Shown here: positions 5,409-21,177 of the stretch, piece by piece
How the letters are laid out: each line of letters begins with the position of its first letter
Numbering within the stretch: position 1 is the first letter of the stretch
Source of the DNA: Acytostelium subglobosum LB1
Lineage: Eukaryota > Evosea > Eumycetozoa > Acytosteliales > Acytosteliaceae
Length of the DNA stretch: 64,000 nucleotides
Assembly (NCBI RefSeq): GCF_000787575.1
Contig: NW_012236509.1
Location: forward strand, 250,001-314,000
Reading direction: 5' to 3'
The notes under the pieces: generated by a model
Told to the model about the DNA's origin: nothing
The model's database searches: none
The model's input: only the letters and a program-made list of their open reading frames with translations
Made by a program: the position numbers and the translations under genes

Positions 5409-8400
5409 ATGGCAAAGGACTATAACTTACAACTATCATCATTGTACTTTGTTGAACAAAGTCAATCACCAATAGGCGATAACAACAACAACAATGATAA
5501 CAACAATGATAGCAACAATGATAACAACAACAGTCCCAAATTTGCTGTACCAACCAAGTATGCATCAATGGGAAAGATTGTAAACCTTAATATGAATGTT
5601 AAAGCAGGAAAACTAGAGTTGAATGACATGGATAAGCGTAAGCTAGTACTGCCAATCAATCAACATCTAAAGATGAGGTATGTAATGAGATGATCATCAG
5701 TCGTTCAATTCATGCATGGATGTACTAAGCTTCAGGAACACCACAACTTTTAGGATGAGCGCCAAGAGTACAACCATCATTGTTGACTGCCCTGTTCCTG
5801 CCATTCCTTTGGAATCAGTCAGCAAGGACAAATGGAATCCTGTGGAATCCATGGACCCGTTCGTTGTGGCACTGAAGGATGTCCGGCGATTCATCTGCAT
5901 CTCTAACTTCTCAGAGGTGCCAAAGAAGTTGATCAAGTTCAACAACGAGCATAATCTGATCGTATTCGATGATGAGAGTGTTGACGCTGATGCTGCATCC
6001 ATATTCTTTAACGCCGACCAGGACATACAAGAGGAGGGTGGCGACAACAAGGATAAGGACAAGGACAAGGACAACAAAGGCAAGGGTGGTTTATTCTCGA
6101 GGATACTCAACTCTGCGGCGAAGGTCATCAAGAATGCCATTGCACCCACTGAGACATTCGATACAACGACACTACTTGGTTTGATCAAGTATTATAACAA
6201 GTGCGTGTCGATCAGTACCAAGGAGAAGGAAGTCATCCTTAATCAGCTGAACAATGTCAAGCCTCCACCTGTTACCGACTTTGAGAGTCTACGCGACAAG
6301 GAGGCCCTAAAGAAGCTCTCCAACGACAACAAGAACTCACATGTAGTCTCATTCCAGATCTTGATGAAGATTGATAAGTATGCTCATCCAACTGGATTGA
6401 TTGGAACAATTCCAATTCAATTAATAACTCACTCACTCAATCAAACATTTAGTGTCCTGCCAGATGGTCTTGGCGAGTCAAAGAGTATGCTCTTGGAGAG
6501 CTTTACCAAGTTCCGGTATCAAGCTCGTGCACCCTTAGTGAGCGAAGAGATATTCAAGATATTCCTCTTGAATAATTGGCTAAAGAACGATCCAAACGTG
6601 GCAGACCTATTGCTCCGCACGTCATTCCTGTACATCGAACTGTTTGGATCGGAGAAACACATTGACGTCATGTTCTCAGCCTTTATCAACTATGTTCAAA
6701 CCATGAATATGTTTGATCTTGAGGACTTGTACACCACCTACAGCACCATATGCTCAAACAATCGAGTCCAACTACTCAGTCTCTTTGCCAAGCAATTCAA
6801 TCTATTCAGTCCACATGTAAGTAGTGTTTGATTGATTGATCGATTGATTATGCAATATTCTAACACACTTCATCCATGCTTCCATCCATCCATCATCAGA
6901 ATGAGCTTGGTCAATACCATCTAGTCTTCCAGAAGTTTGTTGAGCATACTAACTATGCAAGCGAGAAGAACAAGTTCGCTCCATTGTTTAAGAACATTGG
7001 TATGTCCAAGAATGTGATTGATTGATAGGCGGCATCTTACTCACTCATCACACTCATTCACTCACTCAATCAATCATTAGACCTCAACGCACTCAATCCA
7101 TTGATGCTTGGATTCATCCTACAAATGAGCCAGAAGTTCCAACAAGAGGATGTGGTCCAGGATATATATTATAACTTGATTCAATACCCAGATGAATTCA
7201 TCAAGGCCACCAGTAAGATGGATGCCTACAATATCAAGAATTTGGGCACAAAGTTATCAAGTCGAATTCGCAATGACTTCAGAACGACAGGACTTACCAA
7301 GTACATCGAGTTACTCCATCATACCCAATTCTATTCTGTACTCGATGGTGTCGCATGTCAACCAAACGACTTCACCTTTGACACCAAGAAGGAGTTGTTG
7401 AACATGGGTCGGGATGACAACAACAAGTGCATCACATTCCTTCAAAACAAGATCATGATCAGCGCCAGTATCGATGAGTACGTGACTCTGTTGTTGGCAG
7501 TCCCAGCCTATCGCGTTCTTCAAGAGGGAAACAAAAGGTTTCCCTGCACGTTGATTTATATCAACTTGATGTCCGAGAGAGAGTTGGCACTCAGGGCCAC
7601 AGCAAGTGAGATGCAACCATGGACAGGAGATCACTTCCAGTCTTATTGGGACCTGTGCAAAAACATGGTCGATACACTCTACATTTACTCGCATTATATG
7701 CCGATTGACGTGATCAAGTACAGTCTTCCCCACTTGATGCTCGTCAACAAACTAATCACAATGTCCTTGAAAGACTTTGTGGACACCAAGCTCTTGCAAC
7801 GAATCGAGAAGTACCTTGTGCTACAACAACCATCATGTGACAACAATGTCATTCACTGGCCCAACGAGTTCACCATGTACATGGAGAATAAGATCAAGGT
7901 GAGTACATCGTATGCTTGGCTCCAAACAATTCAATATCAATCAATCATGCTAACTCTGGAGCCCACCCCTTCACTCGAACAGATACACGACATGTTGATC
8001 AATGCTTATAAGATGAACTGCATGAACTTAAAGAGCGATGATGTACAGACAAAGGCATTGTTTGATGAGATTGCAAGGCTGTTGCTGAGATACTTTGATG
8101 TCAAGTTGAATGATCATATTGCCATGTTCAAGGAGGCTGAGGAGAAGCTCAATCAGTTCAATTGCTACATCAGCGCAGCCAATGTACTCAGCAGAACATT
8201 CTCCATCCATTGTCCAATCAATGAGAGCAAAGAGAATAGATCTGGACTCATCCTCCAGCGTTTGAAAGAGGTGCTGCCAAAGGTCAGGCAACAGATAGTG
8301 GACAGCTGTACCAAGAATGGACTGGTCATCAACAATGATCAATCATTGATGTTCCTCGGACACTTTGGACGACAGAGTCACAATCAGTTCTTCCTGGCCA

Positions 8401-11400
8401 TCATCAACTTTTATGCCAAGTCATCGTCAGACGCCAACAAAGTGATCAATGTTGACATGCTATGCGAGCGAACCAAGACCCTGATGCAAGACATCATCAA
8501 CATGAACCCTGACATCGAGGTCACCGACCTTTTCCAAGAGTTTGCCAACTTCTCTGGTATCTCCCAACGAAATGAGATCATCACAATCTACAAATACTTC
8601 AATGTCAATGATGGAGTGGCAGCTGACCCAAACAACAACAACAACAAACAAGTTGACGCAGCCAAGAATGAGAATAAGATCATCGATTTCATCACGAGGA
8701 TCACATCGATCTATGGATACAAGAAGAACTTGGACATTTTGTTTGGATTCCTTCAGAATCATCAGGACATCAAGATCCACGATTGGGAGGAGCGTCGAGA
8801 CTACCTCAACAACCGCATCAATATCTTCATGAATGGCGATGAGAAGGGCGTCCAGGACTGCCAGGTCTTCTTCAAGTTGGTGTCGCGTGCACTTGGCGGA
8901 CTGGACTACACGCAGCTCGAGTACTTCAAGGATGTGCCGGTCGACCTGCTCAAGTTCTACTCCTGCTTCAAGGGCGACAATTTCATCAAGAAGTGTGACA
9001 TCATCACGCAGAACCTGCTCACGGACACGGTCAACGACAGCTTGCTCACCAAGACGATTAACGTGCACTCGATCCTCGCGCCACTCATCACAGCCTACAC
9101 AAGTGGCAAGTCCTACTCACTGGAGGATTTTTGCAAAGCCGTGTATCAACGCATCAGCACGACCGACTCGCAGTTCCAGGTGTGCCTCGACAAGATCAAG
9201 GTGGTCACCAGCTCGTTCGCCCAGGTCCAGGTGCTGTTCTCGACTGCCACAGGCACGTACAGCCTCGAGACTATCCTCCCAGCAGTTGTCAACCTGTTGG
9301 CCAAGTCTGAGTTTGTGTCGCGCACATCCAAGTTTGAAGAGGGCCTTTTGGATTGGTTCATTGAGGTCAAGGCCGACAAGACCAGTGTGGTACACAATCA
9401 AAACAACATCGAGGACTTTGATCAAGGACTCAAGTTCGTCATGAACAACAAGCAGTTGACCAAGGCCAAGCAGGAGCAGATGGCCAACATCGAGAACTTT
9501 GCCACACTAGTTGTATTGCTCAAGCGCATCCACAATCTGCACTGCCAGCTCGACAGCACCTTCCACCCGCGATACTTCAAGGGCGAGATCAAGATGGACA
9601 TTCGTCAATCAAACATCCAAAAGTTCCAACACATGGAGAAGCAGCTGGAGGCACATCTCAGGGAGTGGCGCGAATCAATCAAGATGTTGCCACCCCAGCT
9701 CTGGCTCCTTCGCTCACAGGCGCTCTCATCGATGATCAAAGAGGTGGGTGAGCATCTTGATTCTGGGCCCACCGCAGACCCCACGGTGTTGGCANTTCAG
9801 GCTGACGCCCTACATCAGGTATTGCTTCCCCACAGTCGTGCAGGCTGATCTCTTGACCATCTTTAAGGAGTACCCCCAGCGTATGTTCCCAAAGGACCAG
9901 GCAAACTACATTGACTTCCTCATACAGTTGGTAGCGATTCTCAAAGAACGCAACTTTATGGATGTGTACGACCTCAATGAGGACATGGACAGCATGGGGC
10001 CAATGATACACACACTAACAGACAAGCGCACAGTGTTTGACGTGCTGACACAGCTCAACAACAGCAAGATGCCAGACCCCGGGCAGGTCTTCTACGCACA
10101 CACCTTTGACTCGGAAATGGAGCACTTCTTCCGCATTTCCAAGCATGTCAAGGGTGCCGTACTGTTCCTGCTCGGCATTCCAAAGAGGAAGGAGAGGCTG
10201 TTGTACAAGCTGTCCAAGTATCATCAGAACCAGCGATCATTGACATTGTCGCGCATCTACATCATCTCGCTGGAGCGAAATGATGGCCAGGAGTTGTTTA
10301 CATTCATCGATCGCTACAATGAGAAGATACAAATCAATCATTGGGGACCAGAGATAAAGAAGCAATGGATCGCCAGCTCGGCCATCAAGTCACTCAATCT
10401 TCTCCAGGGACCAAGTGGCACGGGCAAGACATTCTATGTCCACTCGCTCAAAAGCACAGTGGCGGCATCGACCACGGTCCACTTCCGACCCGGCTTTGAT
10501 CCCAAGTCTCTGATCGACACGTTTGAGAACTTCAAGTATCAGCAGTTCCCCGCAGGCACCAATGTGCTCGTCCACTTCCTGCTCTCACCCTATGCCGACA
10601 TGGACCAATTCAATCAGTTCATCTACCCACTAATTATGCGTGGCTTTGTGTTTGGACATCGTGTTGGCGAGATCATCAACATACCTGAGACCATCAACCT
10701 CCAATGCTTCATCGAGATTGGTTCGCCATTGGAAGAGTGCAAGCTCAGCATTGCTGATTACGTCTCCCAATCAATCCCCCTCATTCAACTCCTGGCCAAG
10801 CCCATCAGATACGAGAACTCCAACTGGATGTTCACCAAAGACTGCCACGACACACTCACCAAGTTCCTGCCCAGGGCAGTCGCCAATATCGATTCATACA
10901 TTCGCGATGACGTCACAAGCATTGCACGCAGCCTGGAGCCAGCATACCGTGTGCCATCGATCACACATCACCAGCGCACCAACTTCCTGCATCTCCTCTG
11001 CGAGCGTCTCAAGTTCCACACCGTGTATCTTGTATTCCATCGATACCTCCAGCAGAACGGCCATCCCGTCAACCGCATGCTCACACCCGATCAGCTTTAC
11101 AACCAGTTCGTGCTCGAGTCGGTCAAGCTATCTGACCCAATCTTTGCCTCCAATCAAATGATCCAAGAACGCCCGCCACTAATCACCTGCCCCTCGCTAC
11201 CTGTGGACGAGGCCGATGGGTTCAAGATGGCCATGGTGGACTTTGTCGACTTCTCCAACAACCCACACGTCCAGCACGTCGACACATTGATCACGCAGGA
11301 CCAGGCCAAGGCCTCGCCAGCACAATTCAGAAATGCGATCAGCAACGCCTTTGGTATCCATTCGCGAACATACATCCTGGGCAACCTCAGCCAGCAGTAC

Positions 11401-14400
11401 TGCTTCGTTCTCACGCCCGACTTTGGCATGCGTCTCCTTCTCCTGCATAACAAGGTCAAGAACCAGCGATCGCTGGTACTCACAGGCGACACAGGTGTTG
11501 GAAAGACCTATGTCCTGCTCTTCTACTCTTTGCTCATCAATGCTAAGAACGATCGTCTGCCGGACATCTTGTTCGACATTAAGTCCATCATCAACACAAT
11601 CATCAAGAACCACAACATTCGTGCAGCAACCATCCCCAACATCGATGCTGGCGCGTCCAAACAGGAGATTCTCGATTGGCTTCTGCGACTGGATGATTAC
11701 AATCCAGTGATCGGGGCTGTAGCTGCGCAACAAGCTGCCGAGACTGCCAAGGCCACGTTTAAGGCCAACCTCTACCTTGAGATCGAGAGCAAGATCAAGA
11801 AGTTGCTCAAGGACTATGAGCTCATCAACATGAAGGGCAACGACATCTTGGCCAGGATAAGGGACGGTGCAGCACGTGTGGTCACCTCCAAGGACACAAT
11901 GATCGAGACCGTCACAGCCATCATGTCAGTCGAGTTCCACTCATTGTTCCATCGTGTAATCATGCATCAACGTTTCACATCCAAGGAGTTCAAGCTAGGC
12001 GTGAAGAAGCTGATTGAGCAGGCCAAAGACCTTGCCAAGATCAACACCGAGCTCAAGATGGTGGTGTTCATCGACGAGTTCAACACGGCACCATTCGACA
12101 CGCTCTCACTCATCGAGGAGATCTTTGCCAATGGACGCCTGGATGGAGAGGACTGTATCCCAAGCAACATCTTCTGGGTGGGCGCCATGAATCCACAGAT
12201 GGTGACCAAAGGCAACAGCGTGGACTACACCGGCCAACTGTCGGCCACATCGTCCAAAGCATTCGTCGTCCACAACTGTCCACCATCAATGGCCCGACTT
12301 CAACTCAACTATGGTGTGTTTGAAGCACGCCACGAAGAACCATTCTTGGAACACTTCTCCAAGTTGCGACCCAACATCAGCCAACATTGGGACCAGCTCA
12401 AACAATTCATTATTATTGGACAGAACGCCATTCGTGATGCCAAGGAAGACAGAGTGCATATGAGCATCCGCGACCTCGTGCGCAGCATCGACATCTATCG
12501 CTTCTTCATGGAGGAGCCTTGCGGCGAGCGCATCCTTATGTGCGCCTATCCCAAAATGGACGAAGACCTCCATCACTGGCTGGCAATGATCGTCAGCATT
12601 GCGCTAAGCTACTACCTACGTGTGTCAGTTACCAAGCGCAAGGACATCCTGACAAAGTGCCACGACTTCATCGCTAGATTCTGCCCCTACCTCTTTGACA
12701 ACCTACCAGGTGGCGTCAACGTGTTCCTCTACACATTCAAACAGATCTATACTGCATTCTGTAGCAAGGAACACACTCACCTGCCGCCCGGCATTGCGCT
12801 CACTGAGGCGCTCCAACTCAACATCTTCTGCACGGTCGTGTCGGTCAACTGCATGATCCCGCTCTGTATCGTCGGTCCGCCCGGTTGCTCCAAGACGCTC
12901 TCCTTCTCGATTGTCAGCGACAACATGAACATGCCTAAGATCGACCAGCGCTCTCCCTGGGCGGCTATGCGCAACATGGTCACATTCCGTTATCAATGCA
13001 CGCAGCACACGACAGACATCGAGATCAAACAGAAGTTTGAGCAGGCACTCAATCGCCAACGCGAGTATGACAACAGCAACAGCAAGATGCGATCAGTCGT
13101 GTTCCTGGATGAGGCGGGTCTGGTCAACGAGGATGACTCACCCATGAAGATCATGCACGACTACCTCGACAAGGTTGCCCAGAAGACTGAGAAGGAGACA
13201 GCTGACATCGCAATCGTCATCCTCTCCAACAAGATCCTCGACGCTGCCAAGACCAACCGCATGCTCCTGCTCGTCCATCCACCGACCATCACCAAAGAGG
13301 ACGAGGTAGCCCTGGTCCAAGGATGCCTTTTCAACAACGAGACCTGCCTCGAGGCAGAGATCAAACAGCAGACATTCATCAGCGATGCACTCTGTGCTGC
13401 CTACAAGCGTGTCAATGAGTTTGCTCGTGACTCCAAAGCCAACCTCTTCCATCAGCGCGACTTTGTATACTTCTTGCGACACATGTCTCGCGCGTACAAT
13501 GCCAACAACAAGACTTTGAACGCATCGATCGTACTCCACTCACTCGAGAGGAACTTTGGAGGTGTGCCCCTTGGTCGCTTCAGAGAGATGGCCACAGTAT
13601 TCCTCAAGGAGCTCAAGATGGCCAGCACTGATGACCTCAAGCTGCTCGAACATGACAACACTGTTGAACGCATCAAGGAGTCCCTGGCCGAGACAGTCGA
13701 CACCAAGCAGAACTTGAATGTTGCCGCTTTCAGGTACATGATGCTTATCGACCCGACAGAGAACGAGACATCTCTGATGATCCTTCGTGAGCTCCAAGTC
13801 GAACATACAGTGATCCGTGTTGGTGGCTTCGAGACAGACACGAGACCAGAGTCTCTAGTCAAGGTTGTGAGCGAGATCAAGAACGCAATGACAGTAGGCA
13901 GCACTGTGGTGCTGGTCAACACACAGCTGATTGACGCGTGCTTCTACGAGGTGTTCAATCGCTACTTCACCATCCAGCCTGACGACGACGGAGACAAGTT
14001 CGTGGCAATGGTCAGCTTCGCCTCGCACAGCATCCTCACGCCCGTCCACCCGGAGTTCAAGATCATCGTCCACATGCCACTGTCGCGTCTGGAGAACACC
14101 CAACTCCCATGGCTCAACAGGTTCGAGAAGTACTACCTCTCTCTAGAGAACATGATGGAGTACTTCCTGCGCACTGACGCGCCACACTTGAGGAAGGACT
14201 GTGAGTTGCTCATTCGCGAGGGCAATCATTTTGCCAACTTCTTCCATGCCAGCGCCAATCGACTGCTGTTGGCGGGATTCTCAGACAGCGAGACTGTGCC
14301 CTCACTCGTGTATTCAATGGCTCGCGAGGCATACACCAACAACACGACAATGTCGATTGCACCAGCACACGTCATGGTCAAAGCAGACATCAATGAGAAG

Positions 14401-17400
14401 TTCGAGAGCACCAAGGAACGTCTGTCGCTCTCCAAGATGTTCAACTGGAAGCTCCTGCAGTTGGCACGTCCCGAGACCATGTTCAATCTCAAGAAGATGC
14501 CCAAATCATACGTTGAGGAGTACTTGTTGCGCCAGGACCACTTCAACGCGCTTCGTTTCCTTCACAATGTTATCCAGCGACGTATGATTGTTGGCGATAC
14601 CAATGTGTCCAACAAGTGGATCATCTACACAAGGAGCTCGCCATCTCTCGACCTCATGAATGACGCCAAGGTGGACGAGGTTGCGCCACTTCTCTTCTCA
14701 GGCCTGGACCTCACAACATACACACGGCCTCTCACAAACAATATACTGAGTATCATTCAGATTAGCTCGATCAAGTCCAGCGAGCAGTGTCGCAGCGAGA
14801 TCGTCAATCGGTTCATCAACAATGATGACAAGCAGATCTGTTTGATCGTTGCCAACATGGAGTTTGTCAATCAACATCAGATCAACTACGTTGTCAACAT
14901 ATTCAATGAGTTCTCCAGGCCAGACAAGCTCGTGGTGACCATCTGCCACTACTCGCCCGAGTTCTCCATCTCCAACCAGACCAAGCTCAACTCGATCTTC
15001 CTCAACGGCTTTGACTACCTCTATGTCGACTCGTTTGGAGTTGGTGTCAATCACATCCCAATCGAATCATTTGCCAAGAAGATCGATGTTGACATTCGAA
15101 CATGGATCGCCAAGGCATATGGCCTGCGTCCAATCAAGGCCGACGACTACTCACTTCGCGAAGCCTTCAAGACCATGTTCCTTGAGAAGCTCACCAACAT
15201 CTCAATGACGTCGAACAATATCCGCAACTTCAACAATCACCGACATCTCTCGGAAACGACCAAGGAGTTCTATTCCAACGCTCAATTCAGGAGTCTGCGC
15301 GCCAAGGACTTGTTTGTCAAGCATCCAGTATGGTACAACGAGATAATTCAATCATTTGAGCGAGTCTGGGACGATGAGCACGTGTTCCCGAGGATCATCG
15401 CCAACATCTCCAACCTTATCTTGACGGGCAAGACATGCTCTTCATTCCTCCAAACGATCAAGGACTCGATGGAATCATATCTGTACCCGACAATCGCTCA
15501 AACATTCCGCTACCTATTCAATCATCTGATGTTTGAACACATCAATCGTGTGGAGGTCGACACCGCGCAGGAGCAGTTGGTCACCATGATCATTCGAAGC
15601 ATTGAGTTCAACAGACCCGTGGAGATTGAGAACCGGTTCGAGCCAGTCAAGCTCAGCGTGCCACTTGCTGTGAGGGGTGTAGCCGGCCAGCCCAAGGCTA
15701 TCACTCTGCCGCTGTTCGAGACGATCAACACAATCATTCAGAACATGCTCAATCATGTGTTGCACACTACCAAGTCGCCTCAGATCGATGCGATCACCAG
15801 CAGTATGCACGAACATATCCAACGACATCGTGCACGCGACCTTATCACACACATCGACAACAACTACCAACTGCGCAATGACTACACCAAAGACTTTGTG
15901 GTACACCAGTTGGAGTTTGAACCCCAATGGACCATGTTCGTTTTCAACATGATGCAGAGGCTTACGCCTCTCGAGCTGAACTCGATCGTGGACCTGTCCA
16001 TCATCAAACACTTCCATTCACCCACCATCAACTTCCTCAAACATATGGTCGAGCCCATCTATCACTTGGACAAGGACACCGACTTCTTGGAGCTGTTCAT
16101 AGGCGAACTCAACAACACCCCGATTAACGAGCGTGTGCTTAAGACCTCACACATCCGAGACGTCATCGTACGATTGTCAATGAGTCGCCTTGCTGACGCC
16201 TTTTCCTCGGATGTGCGCATGGCAGAGTTTGAGTTCCTCAAGGACTGGCTCGCGGTGGTCCGCGAAGTGTTCAATCGTAACACGATCGAGCAGATCAGGC
16301 TCAGGACCAGCGACAGCACAGTTAACTACGTGTTCATCGTGTACCAGATCCTCATTGACAATGCCATCTCTCACAATGATGAGCTCATTATCATGTCCAC
16401 CGCACGTCTGCTTCGTGAGGCCTTCCCAGAACCCTTGACATCCAACAACACACACGCGACACTCACACAGCTCCATCAACTCAACATCCACCTCGTCACA
16501 TCCGACATGCCACCAGTCCCAATCCAATGCGTGCTGGACATCATCGAGGCGTCACTCTACAATGAGCACAACATCAATGTGTTCTTGCGCATCTGCAACA
16601 AGGACAGGACACTGCGATCAGAGATGCCAGAGCTGGTCGATCAGATACCTTATGGATGGTGCTCCAACCTGCTCCACACACTCCTATTGCGACAGGATAC
16701 AACGCGTATGGTCAAGAGGGGCATACTCTCAATCTTGGGCAACGGACAGGTCGATCACAAACGCATCGACAACCCTGCAGTTCTGCCAATGATGCACAGT
16801 GAGGTCATGCGCAAGTCTTTTGGCGCTGGCACTAACCCATGTGCTGCCAACCCGCCATTGGCCAACGTGTTGTATCACTCCATCATGCAGTGCAATCGCG
16901 CCACTGGACCGTTAGACATCAACCAACTGATGGCCACACGAAGCGACAACGTAGTCAACGATGTCTACTCGACAATGGAGCGATATGTCTTGGACACAAT
17001 GTTGCTCGATCATCTGGCCACACTGATCAACACAGTAAAGACTCCCGCTGCACTGATCAATCATCTAACCACACATGCCCAGGAGCAAAAGGCCTATCGA
17101 TCACTGTTGGACACGACCAAGCCGTCATCAATGACATTGGCCAACAACATAGTGATCAATCAAGTCTATTTGCTCAACAACATCACATCTGAGGCTGTTG
17201 TGATTGATCTGGTCAAGTCGGCACCCTTGCTCAAACTGCTTGGCATGGACGAATTGCATGTAGCCGAGAACATACTTGTGAAGCAGATGACTCTAATGCC
17301 ATTCATTGACGACACCGCGCATCCCGATCACAAGCTGTACATCATGTTGAAGACTGCAGTCGACTCCTCTTCAATTGACGTGGTCAACGAACTCATACGC

Positions 17401-20400
17401 GCAACTCCATCTGATCGTGACCGTGGCTTCATCAGGATGGCACTGTTCCTGCTGACCTACCAGATGTATCTCGCGGCCACCCCACTCAACTTTGTAGACA
17501 CGTTGTTCGACAACAACACATTTTCCCATCACTTTGGACTCGCCAACTACAAGCACTTCTACACCAAGTTCACCCAAGAGAGGTTCATCTCCTGCACCCT
17601 CGACAACATGCTCAGACGCACCGCCAACAGGGACCTTCAACTCGAGATCCGTGCTCAGATCTTGGTCAACTTTATAGCTGTGGCCATCGGTTGCTCGCCC
17701 AATTCGTACCTGTACAATGTAGCGCGGGCTCCCAACACAGTGGTTGTCAAGCCCTTCCCCGCGCACGAGGGACATGCATTCAAGGATTGTGGAATGATGT
17801 ATCGCATGCAGCATGGACCCGTCGTGACTGGCACGATGGGCGGCATCACAATGTACAAGTTCCTGGTCAACTGTCCATCATGGGGAGTCATGGCCTACGC
17901 ACTCACATGCTGTGCGGACAATGTCTACCAGGCGATCTCAAACACGGCCTTTGTGATCAGAGATCACACCAATAACACACGCGAGACACTCGTCAACTAT
18001 GTCGCCGACAGGTCATACACATGCATCACCGAGGTCGAGGGCAACCCAATGATGCGCGATCAACACATGGACTACAGTTTGTTCTTTGCCGAGTTTGCCT
18101 ATGTCATGTGGTCCGACTCATACTTTAGCCCAATCTCATTCCAGCAACATACCAACAACATCCCTGCATACGAGCGACACCTGACCTCTTTGATCAAGTC
18201 GGTAGAGTACTCATATCGCACGCTCCAGGACAAGAGGACTGCGATGAGTCAGCAGCGCCAGACCAAGATGCATTGGATCAGAGAGTTACGCAACACGTAC
18301 ACAGGCATCAACAACTCGCCAGCCATCGACCCGGAAACGGCCACCTCTATCGTCTCTGACCGACAGGACATACCGGTCCTCAAGCTATTCAATCAAAAGA
18401 TCGAGGACATTGTGTTGTCCCGCCACATCCCAGTGATGGTCCACTTCCTCAAGACATTCTTCCACTACTTTAGCTATCGCCTGCCCAAGGACTACCTCAA
18501 CCGCACCGTGCCCGAGTGTTTGGAGTTCATCACACCGCTCGAATCGATCGATGCCACGTCCACAATACATCGCGCGTGGGATGCGCTCAAGGACTCGTGG
18601 GATAAGGTCACCAAAAGACTGACGGCTATCGTGGTCGGCTGCCACAGTACACACGTGGGCAAGATCGATGACAGCACTCCACTCACACAGATCATCTACA
18701 GCACAGTGGACGAGCAGAACATCGGTTCAATCATTGATCTGATCAACACTTGGATGCAGAACACACAGCAAAAGATCTTGGATGATCTCAACAATGCATC
18801 AGAGGAAACTATATTCGGCTCGATCATCAATGGATATGGTGGAGAGAAGAGTATGCGGGGCACAAAGATCGACGAAGTGCCTTCAGAGTATGGTGACAAC
18901 TACCTCTTGATCGGCGCCAACATCGACACACAAAGGTTCTACGACTTCCTCTCTGGCGCCATCGCCAAGTATCACTCATTCACGAGGAGTGAGTTCAAGC
19001 CCAACATGAAGATGATTGAGTCCAAGCTCATTTGTTCATTCCTCTCGGGCAAGGTGTATCGTGCCAACCTGGAACGATTCAACATGTTCCCAATCGCCCA
19101 TGCCGTGGTCGCCGAGGACAATGATCCACAATCTGGAATGAACCCCAACACATTGATGTCCGAGTCGATCAAGAGTCTCATCTCGCTGAACATGAAGCTG
19201 CTGGCGCCATGGAGGAAGCCCATCTCCAAGACATGCCATACACTGCTGACATCACACTGCCACTCCAAGAGCTCACACAAGGAGATGGAGTCTCTGTGCC
19301 AGTACTTCAATATGGCCATCACTCACTTGCTCAGACACAATCACTATGAAGAGCAACTGGACAACAATATCACAGTGCACGAATTCACTCAATCAAAGAG
19401 GATCGGTCATGACAACCTTCCAGGCGACTTCCTCTCGGTACTAGAGAGTGTTAGTCTCAACTCGATCCACACAGTGACCAGTCTTGTGATCAAGGAGTAT
19501 CTTATGTACAGCTACCTCTACGCCGACACAATCAGACAGCCCGTCAACCCCGAATTGGGCAGCTTCAATCTTTTGAAAGACAAACTGCTTGCTGACCTCA
19601 ATACATCGCCAGACGCATGGAAGCAATACCTACACACAGTGATCCATCGACTGAACTCACCAGACTGCAAGGAGGACATCAAGAAGGTGCAGCCCAACGA
19701 ACCTCTACGCAACCTTCTCGACAAGTACGTCCCATCCACTCATGAAGAGTTCAAGATGCCGCCGTCCAAGACATTTAACACGCACAGGGATATAGTTGAG
19801 GTCGGTCTCACACTCAACTACTACCCCATCCTCATGAGGACGCTTCATGACGTGCTGTCCACCGTGTACATCAGCTCACTTGATGCACCGTCCGCCGAGT
19901 TCAAGGAGCTACATGGCTCGGAACTTGAGATTGACGACCCAATGGACACTGCTCGGCCAACATCTTCAGCAGCAGAGGACGCCGAAATGTCCGCTCGGGC
20001 ACCAGATCACAATGATGCAGACGCAATTGACAGAGCCCCCAAGTCTCATGGACTCATACATCCCATCAAACCTCCACAAGGTAACGAGTTGGCCACATGT
20101 CTCTTCAACTGGCTTCGCTTCCTTCCAAGTCCACCTCAATACCATTCGAACAAATCGTTCATCGCCAGTCTGATCGATCACTTTAAGAAGGACTGCATCG
20201 ACCCTGACCAACCCATCAACGTTGATATGCTGTTCACTGAGCTTGCCAAGGGAGCCGAGCAACCCAACAACGCTGCACCCGAGTATCCAGGCTGTCTTCT
20301 TATGTCCATACTGGACCAGGTGACAAAGAAGGACGACTTGTTTGAAGCAACCATCATGAAGGAGTGTGACAAGTGTGAGAACTCTTGGTTGACACAGTCC

Positions 20401-20919
20401 AATATCATGTTCAGATGTCACAGTAACAATCAACACGACGATATCAACAACACGATACGCGATTCAATCAAGGATGATGCCAGCAACCAATGTCCGAACT
20501 GCCACCTACCACCAGTCCAAACACTTGAGAGGCATCCACAATATGTCTTTGTTGAACTCGACCGAATGAACATCATTGACCAGAGCACCATGACCGTCCT
20601 CACTCTCTCGGACTACTACCAATCAGACTTTATCATATCATATCAAGTAAGTTAAGTTATGCTATGTGATTGGCTACTCTATCAATCAATCAATCATTCA
20701 CTCACTCACTCAATCTCTTTCCAGTTACAATCGTTCATATTCAAGGAGGATAGCGTTCAAGGATATACATTGGTGGTCAATTCCAATGACAACCAAGTGT
20801 TGTTGTGCTCATCACATTCAATCCAACGAGTGAGTCGTGATGATTGTCCAGATGTATTCCAAAAGGCGCCATTATTATTGATGTACAAGTTCGACGACAA
20901 GGTGAAGAAGAGACAATGA
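5409..20919 (+). CDS. Giant RNF213/mysterin-like AAA+ protein with a C-terminal degenerate USP-like domain
   Basis: Five exons (5409-5677, 5754-6816, 6900-6999, 7081-20646, 20725-20919) give about 5,063 aa once the n at 9795 is not counted as a codon base. Human RNF213 is similar in size (about 5,200 aa): a dynein-like AAA+ core plus RING and RZ E3 fingers. Three P-loops are visible: GPSGTGKTF (about residue 1586), TGDTGVGKTY (1944) and GPPGCSKTLSFSIV (2406). Walker-B-like MVVFIDEFN (about 2136) and VVFLDEAGL (about 2483) follow the last two. The SKT P-loop with SIVSDNM and the LDEAGL sequence match the RNF213 AAA4 unit as I recall it. I see no RING or RZ cluster in the later part. After an acidic linker, residues about 4790-5063 resemble a peptidase C19 (USP) fold with CDKC...CPNC zinc-ribbon pairs and a YTLVV...LLLMYKF end. 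All introns fall in the first 1.7 kb. Role in ubiquitin or antibacterial biology is inferred. Confidence 0.85.
9795..9795. other. Ambiguous base that breaks the giant reading frame
   Basis: The frame is open to the codon ending at 9794 (...TVLA) and again from 9796 (FRLTPYIRYCFPTVVQ...). Leaving out the n makes the 5,063-codon frame continuous, so it is best read as a gap placeholder or miscalled base rather than a lesion. Confidence 0.85.
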
Positions 20920-21177
20920 TCACTCAATGTAGGACCTATGACACGGTCGGCCTTTTGGGTCCATAAATATTAATAAACTCCAATCTATTGATTTATAAAT
21001 GTGATGTAAATTAATTAATTTTTAATTATTTGATTATCTATAATTTCTAAGTACATCCCCTTTAGTGAATCATTCATTTACTCACTCAACTTCAATTATC
21101 TTATTTGTATACAAATAATACATAATTACTTATCATAGTGACTACATTTGTTTGAGATCTTATTCATTCAACTTAAT

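Follow-up and report, generated by a model that had tools for sequence, protein, structure and literature searches.

An RNF213-like AAA+ gene family in Acytostelium subglobosum with a C-terminal domain probably derived from a ubiquitin-specific protease

We analysed a 64,000-nucleotide stretch of the Acytostelium subglobosum LB1 genome (hereafter the window), which carries on its forward strand a giant gene with an AAA+ core resembling that of RNF213 (mysterin) and a C-terminal tail resembling a ubiquitin-specific protease (USP; peptidase C19). At the level of sequence, our comparisons demonstrate that the AAA core is homologous to RNF213, that the tail is homologous to USPs by way of the paralogs of the gene, and that the catalytic His and the Cys-box motif have been lost. 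Taken as a whole, the explanation that we favour, and hold to be moderately probable, is an RNF213-like AAA+ family whose C-terminal USP-derived domain, without catalytic residues, would read ubiquitin. RNF213 is a human antimicrobial ubiquitin ligase, encoded by a moyamoya disease gene, and it coats bacteria and parasite vacuoles.

The window gene and its AAA+ core

The genome searched comprised 30.7 Mb in 56 contigs, and the window is part of the same genome. The features of the window gene upstream of its tail are the following.

7029-9848, forward strand: N-terminal arm ORF, upstream of the AAA core, assigned by homology to the arm of another gene (L013)
9883-20646, forward strand: main exon (P0001, 3588 aa), with the AAA+ core, a long middle region and the first part of the tail
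10408-10431, forward strand: Walker A motif GPSGTGKT
11485-11508, forward strand: Walker A motif GDTGVGKT, with Walker B motif VVFIDEF within 12061-12096 (AAA_22, E 1.8e-9)
12040-14274, forward strand: AAA core homologous to RNF213 (P0001 residues 720-1464; phmmer)
12874-12897, forward strand: Walker A motif GPPGCSKT, with Walker B motif VVFLDEAG within 13096-13134
14275-19920, forward strand: post-core region without a credible PDB or Pfam match
19921-20031, forward strand: acidic linker

The arm ORF matched the L013 arm at 27% over 211 aa (E 2.9e-15). The reading frame changes between the arm ORF and the main ORF, and a single ambiguous base (N) lies at 9795 within their overlap; therefore, an assembly fault is probably the source of the frame change near this position. 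The main frame is open from stop to stop over 9736-20655, and P0001 was read from the ATG at 9883 up to the splice site. The final ~250 residues of the gene continue the frame of the core and are completed by an exon behind a 78-nt intron, and an AATAAA is found at 20972, past the stop codon. The coordinates in the earlier note were borne out on re-reading, and the linker, the tail segments, the Cys pairs and the closing strands lie at the positions listed here.

The same note had called the gene an RNF213/mysterin-like AAA+ giant, and its dynein-like core is indeed homologous to the solved RNF213 structures. Searching the PDB by phmmer, we found that P0001 720-1464 matched residues 2110-2854 of chain 9jw1_A (E 3.6e-38) and residues 2516-3260 of chain 8s24_A (E 1.2e-37). 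Among the PDB matches listed for P0001, nine of the 14 were RNF213; the remaining five, all at E 0.63, represent a single kind of periplasmic protein. A five-row profile, in which the rows from three paralogs (C49, C47b and C53) were confined to the post-core part, matched RNF213 with E 5.6e-50 and reached residue 3281 of chain 9g08_A. The Walker motifs are kept in the core of the window gene, where two Walker A motifs are each paired with a Walker B motif and one further Walker A motif is present.

The post-core region and the gene family

According to one report (PMC7311170), animal RNF213 carries its E3 module after the core and a helical C-terminal domain (CTD), and its authors describe the E3 subdomains and the CTD as having no PDB counterparts. 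No RING was found by Pfam in P0001, in the two ORFs upstream of it or in the five post-core regions of the family, those of C53 and C47a being partial. The RZ finger (PF20173) was detected at two places in the genome at E<=0.1, neither of which is at an RNF213-like gene. The post-core profile gave nothing in the PDB at E<=1, including the E3-back, E3-core, E3-shell and CTD of RNF213; the first 500 post-core residues gave a single chance-level PDB match (E 0.26), and the best Pfam match of the post-core regions reached only E 0.034. The conserved Cys and His columns of the post-core alignment include C213, C230, H242, C269 and H270 within a stretch of 58 columns, the spacing of which, judged by eye, is not that of an RZ finger. 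The claim that the tail stands in place of an E3 module holds at the level of sequence only: no RING, RZ finger or E3-module match was found, but a diverged E3 scaffold may lie within the ~1,900 residues that separate the matched core from the tail and for which no match was obtained. The two RZ-finger genes (L015 and L016) also carry repeated Cys-rich fingers and appear ZNFX1-like by eye.

A search of the genome with the AAA core returned seven matches, which were the window gene, four close copies (C49, C47a, C47b and C53; 52-59% identity) and two distant genes. The family of five considered below leaves out these two weaker core matches, at C47:764151 (E 5.9e-22) and C51:898491 (E 5.2e-10). 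Splice models of the paralogs were built from GT-AG sites and alignment rather than from transcripts, and the N-terminal parts of the paralogs were used solely in the six-frame profile search. We found that a tail homologous to that of the window gene follows the core in all four close paralogs, so that every member of the family of five has one. Judged by coordinates, four members have a single open frame that continues from the AAA core into the tail; the C53 copy shows one frame change before its tail begins. The tail is thus not a separate gene, whereas a separate gene in relatives was the outcome that the earlier note had named as refuting its reading. Acidic stretches also precede the tail in C49, C47a and C47b. 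The tail is the least conserved part of the protein, with 20-24% identity between the window tail and the others as against 52-59% in the core, and this low conservation could also mean drift.

A conserved helical pair of ~150 aa follows the tail in the four longer paralogs (L009, L024, L025 and L026); the window gene stops at the tail. The pair looks SAM-like by eye, and the three of four tails scanned whole gave no Pfam SAM-domain match. A separate opposite-strand ORF near the C47b gene (L025 ~1534-2334, +) contains the same helical pair (E 3.3e-20). The distant RNF213-like core at L022/L027 (G000:C47:764151 onward) shows 27% identity; over the following 9.9 kb, the USP-like tail gave no match at E<=0.5, and the helical pair matched weakly (E 1.3e-5).

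Relationship of the tail to ubiquitin-specific proteases

The tail of the window gene contains the following elements.

20059-20136, forward strand: Cys-box-like helix GNELATCLFNWLRFLP, for which the register test in the window came close to a tie between Glu and the conserved Cys as the residue at the catalytic place
20284-20322, forward strand: helix YPGCLLMSILDQV, the counterpart, matched by eye, of the QDAxEF helix of USPs (SPGEFLVKLLDNL in C47a)
20365-20502, forward strand: fingers with two Cys pairs, CDKC at 20365-20376 and CPNC at 20491-20502
20536-20568, forward strand: palm strand PQYVFVELDRM
20647-20724, forward strand: 78-nt GT-AG intron, in frame (26 codons, one TAA)
20725-20919, forward strand: last exon with the closing strands, containing the His-box region, then LLCSSHS and APLLLMYKF; stop codon at 20917-20919
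20740-20778, forward strand: His-box region FKEDSVQGYTLVV, without a His, in the last exon

The earlier note had read this tail as a degenerate USP, a reading that holds through the paralogs. The Pfam family UCH (PF00443; cut-off 23.9 bits) was matched by the tails of C49 (43.5 bits), C47a (37.8 bits) and C47b (30.7 bits), with a best E of 3.9e-11, and the matched profile positions in the three tails were 33-220, 102-254 and 134-245 of 254; the C53 tail gave no Pfam UCH match. The C47a tail was also recovered by a whole-genome C19 search (E 1.6e-8). Alone, the window tail gave no UCH/C19 match in Pfam and no USP signal by hhalign (Prob 0.1%). With an HMM built from the four paralog tails, it reached 68.0 bits (E 9.4e-20), with 11.1 as the best of 2000 shuffles, and BLAST against the same four tails gave E 8.7e-11 to 7.2e-5. 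Since three of the four paralog tails are C19-positive and the window tail is homologous to them, a USP origin of the window tail follows by transitivity and is well supported by these comparisons. The absence of any significant C19 match, which the earlier note had named as evidence against a USP, is thus not what we found, as relatives of the window tail match C19 significantly.

Profile-profile comparison was performed with hhalign. In local mode, a profile of the five tails was aligned to one of five USP stretches from the same genome (two full domains and three partial ones), which resulted in a score of 48.3 (Prob 87.6%, E 3.5e-6); the best of 100 column shuffles scored 19.8, and the reversed profile scored 16.9. 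Removal of the window row lowered the Prob to 49.8% (E 1.7e-4). The global mode of hhalign was dropped, the real pair scoring 45.8 (Prob 94.5%) and one column shuffle 128 (Prob 99.6%).

When the tail profile was searched against the PDB, the top match was a ubiquitin hydrolase (6tbm_Q, E 6.5e-4), with an alignment that begins in the fingers and takes in the His box. The rest of the list of nine at E<=10 consisted of a kinesin-associated protein (0.039), USP18 (0.054), four USP28 entries (0.29-0.31) and two purine-synthesis proteins (1.1). Eight ordinary USP loci were searched in six frames with the five-tail profile, and only three were recovered at E<=0.5 (L007, 7.4e-5; L006, 0.09; L003, 0.24). 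NCBIfam gave no informative match, and a comparison of the tail alignment with viral contigs yielded nine pattern matches and zero relatives. An AlphaFold2 single-sequence model of the window tail, in which the 26 codons of the intron were read through with TAA as Gln, had a pLDDT of 37.5 and was too uncertain to be of use.

The active-site region was compared across the family. Two close Cys groups are present in the fingers of five of five tails, in line with the proposal that CDKC and CPNC form the zinc ribbon of the fingers; C-x2-C occurs twice only in the window and C49, and the spacing is irregular in the other tails. At the GHY position of the His box we found GSY (C49), GLY (C47a), GTY (C47b) and ERY (C53), and in the window it is absent (VQGYTLVV); the loss of the His box proposed for the window gene holds, the catalytic His being replaced or absent in all five tails. 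A Cys box of the GLxNxG(N/A)TC type is present at seven of eight ordinary USP loci and in none of the five tails. One Cys (C14) is invariant in all five tails. Its register was tested by scoring against three ordinary Cys boxes, and the results favoured, for C49 (16.7 vs 0.0) and C47a (9.3 vs -13.0), the register in which Pro occupies the catalytic place, and gave a near tie for the window (-3.0 with Glu, -3.7 with Cys); C47b and C53 were uninformative because their cuts start too late. A Cys-box-like segment is present at 20059-20136, as had been proposed, but the conserved Cys probably lies four residues beyond the catalytic place.

A sixth gene, L013 (G000:C35 around 303174-303422), contains the N-terminal arm and the start of a pseudo-USP tail in one 628-aa ORF. 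The tail start matched at 31% over 89 residues (E 4.5e-6). The arm and the tail start are ~180 residues apart in this single ORF, and there is therefore no AAA core between them; the genome search with the AAA core also gave nothing on C35. L013 lacks the invariant tail Cys, reading ATLLINW, and a later frame contains closing-strand-like sequence with GEY at the His box. The lack of a GNTC box, the replacement or loss of the catalytic His and the lack of the invariant Cys in the sixth gene together mean that the enzyme is most likely dead.

Three other readings of these data were weighed. That the USP resemblance arose by convergence, from a zinc ribbon and the helices and strands on either side of it, draws on the silence of the window tail alone in Pfam and hhalign and on the low pLDDT of the sole structure model; it is extremely improbable, as three of the four homologous tails lie above the curated C19 cut-off of Pfam and the order of elements is kept across the whole domain. 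An active but odd protease, using the shifted invariant Cys and another His, is very unlikely, if slightly less so. The presence of C14 in five of five tails speaks for such an enzyme, and there are precedents: PMC12037411 describes USP53 and USP54 as once annotated inactive and then proved active, and a review (PMC10919355) mentions claims of deubiquitinase (DUB) activity through non-conserved residues for USP52 and USP39. The former source also states that USP54 shows a canonical triad and that USP53 and USP54 both depend on their own Cys and His. Against such an enzyme, the catalytic place is taken by Pro under the better register for C49 and C47a (for the window, Glu there gives a near tie), none of the five tails retains the catalytic His, and the sixth gene does without the invariant Cys.

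More weight falls to a third reading, though it is still unlikely: the tail would be a USP-derived fold without ubiquitin contact, capping the giant in a purely structural or protein-binding capacity. The fast divergence of the tail relative to the core is consistent with such a cap, as are the allosteric and scaffold roles that the review names for pseudo-DUBs (PMC10919355), and the helical pair behind the tail of the four longer paralogs could be the working end. Against it stand the finger Cys groups and palm strands, which are kept in five of five genes, and the domain start kept in L013, where no AAA core lies between arm and tail.

Possible role and comparison with known systems

In the reading that we favour, that of a USP-derived ubiquitin reader, the C-terminal domain would have descended from a ubiquitin-specific protease whose catalytic residues are gone in every member examined, and the catalytic loss would predate the expansion of the family. 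The dead USP fold would no longer cut ubiquitin and could still grip ubiquitin or a ubiquitin-like protein through its palm and zinc-bearing fingers, and the AAA core would spend ATP to change shape or to form assemblies on the target that carries ubiquitin. RNF213 acts as a writer of ubiquitin on such targets; this branch, in which no RING or RZ finger was detected, would read it. By analogy with RNF213, such a protein might plausibly serve a phagocyte in defence; antibacterial or lipid-droplet defence was the possibility raised in the earlier note. We also raise, tentatively and with somewhat more doubt than belief, the idea that the entire RNF213-like family of this lineage gave up writing for AAA+ reading by way of a dead USP, with one member having shed the AAA core and kept only the arm and the reader. 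The same core joined to a dead deubiquitinase end suggests that the older task of the core may be general ubiquitin handling, not ligation.

Among the literature matches listed, a set that holds few subscription papers and no bioRxiv preprints, there was no RNF213-like protein with a USP domain and no RNF213 of a social amoeba. The terms RNF213 and Amoebozoa gave no match, and RNF213 and Dictyostelium gave only papers that, from their titles, abstract openings and term counts, we judged to be unrelated. The C19 match in the relatives may already be present in automatic database annotation.

The window gene resembles RNF213/mysterin in its AAA+ core over ~745 residues with Walker motifs, in its giant size and in its long pre-core arm, and differs from it in ending in a USP-like domain, with no RING, RZ finger or E3-module/CTD match detected. 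According to PMC11549300, the coating of bacteria by animal RNF213 requires E3 activity via the RZ finger, and its coating of bacteria and vacuoles needs ATP hydrolysis. The L015 and L016 genes of the same genome contain an RZ finger like the one needed for this coating, but they are separate from the RNF213-like loci, where the RZ finger was not found. With USPs (peptidase C19, PF00443) the tails share the order of a first helix, a QDAxEF-like helix, fingers with two Cys groups, palm strands and a His-box region, and they differ in having neither a GNTC-type Cys box nor GHY and in being fused to an AAA+ giant. USP39/Sad1 and USP52/PAN2 act in splicing and mRNA decay and not in an AAA+ giant, and the activity of both is still debated according to the review (PMC10919355); like the present family, they belong to larger machines and have a USP domain that lacks the usual catalytic residues.
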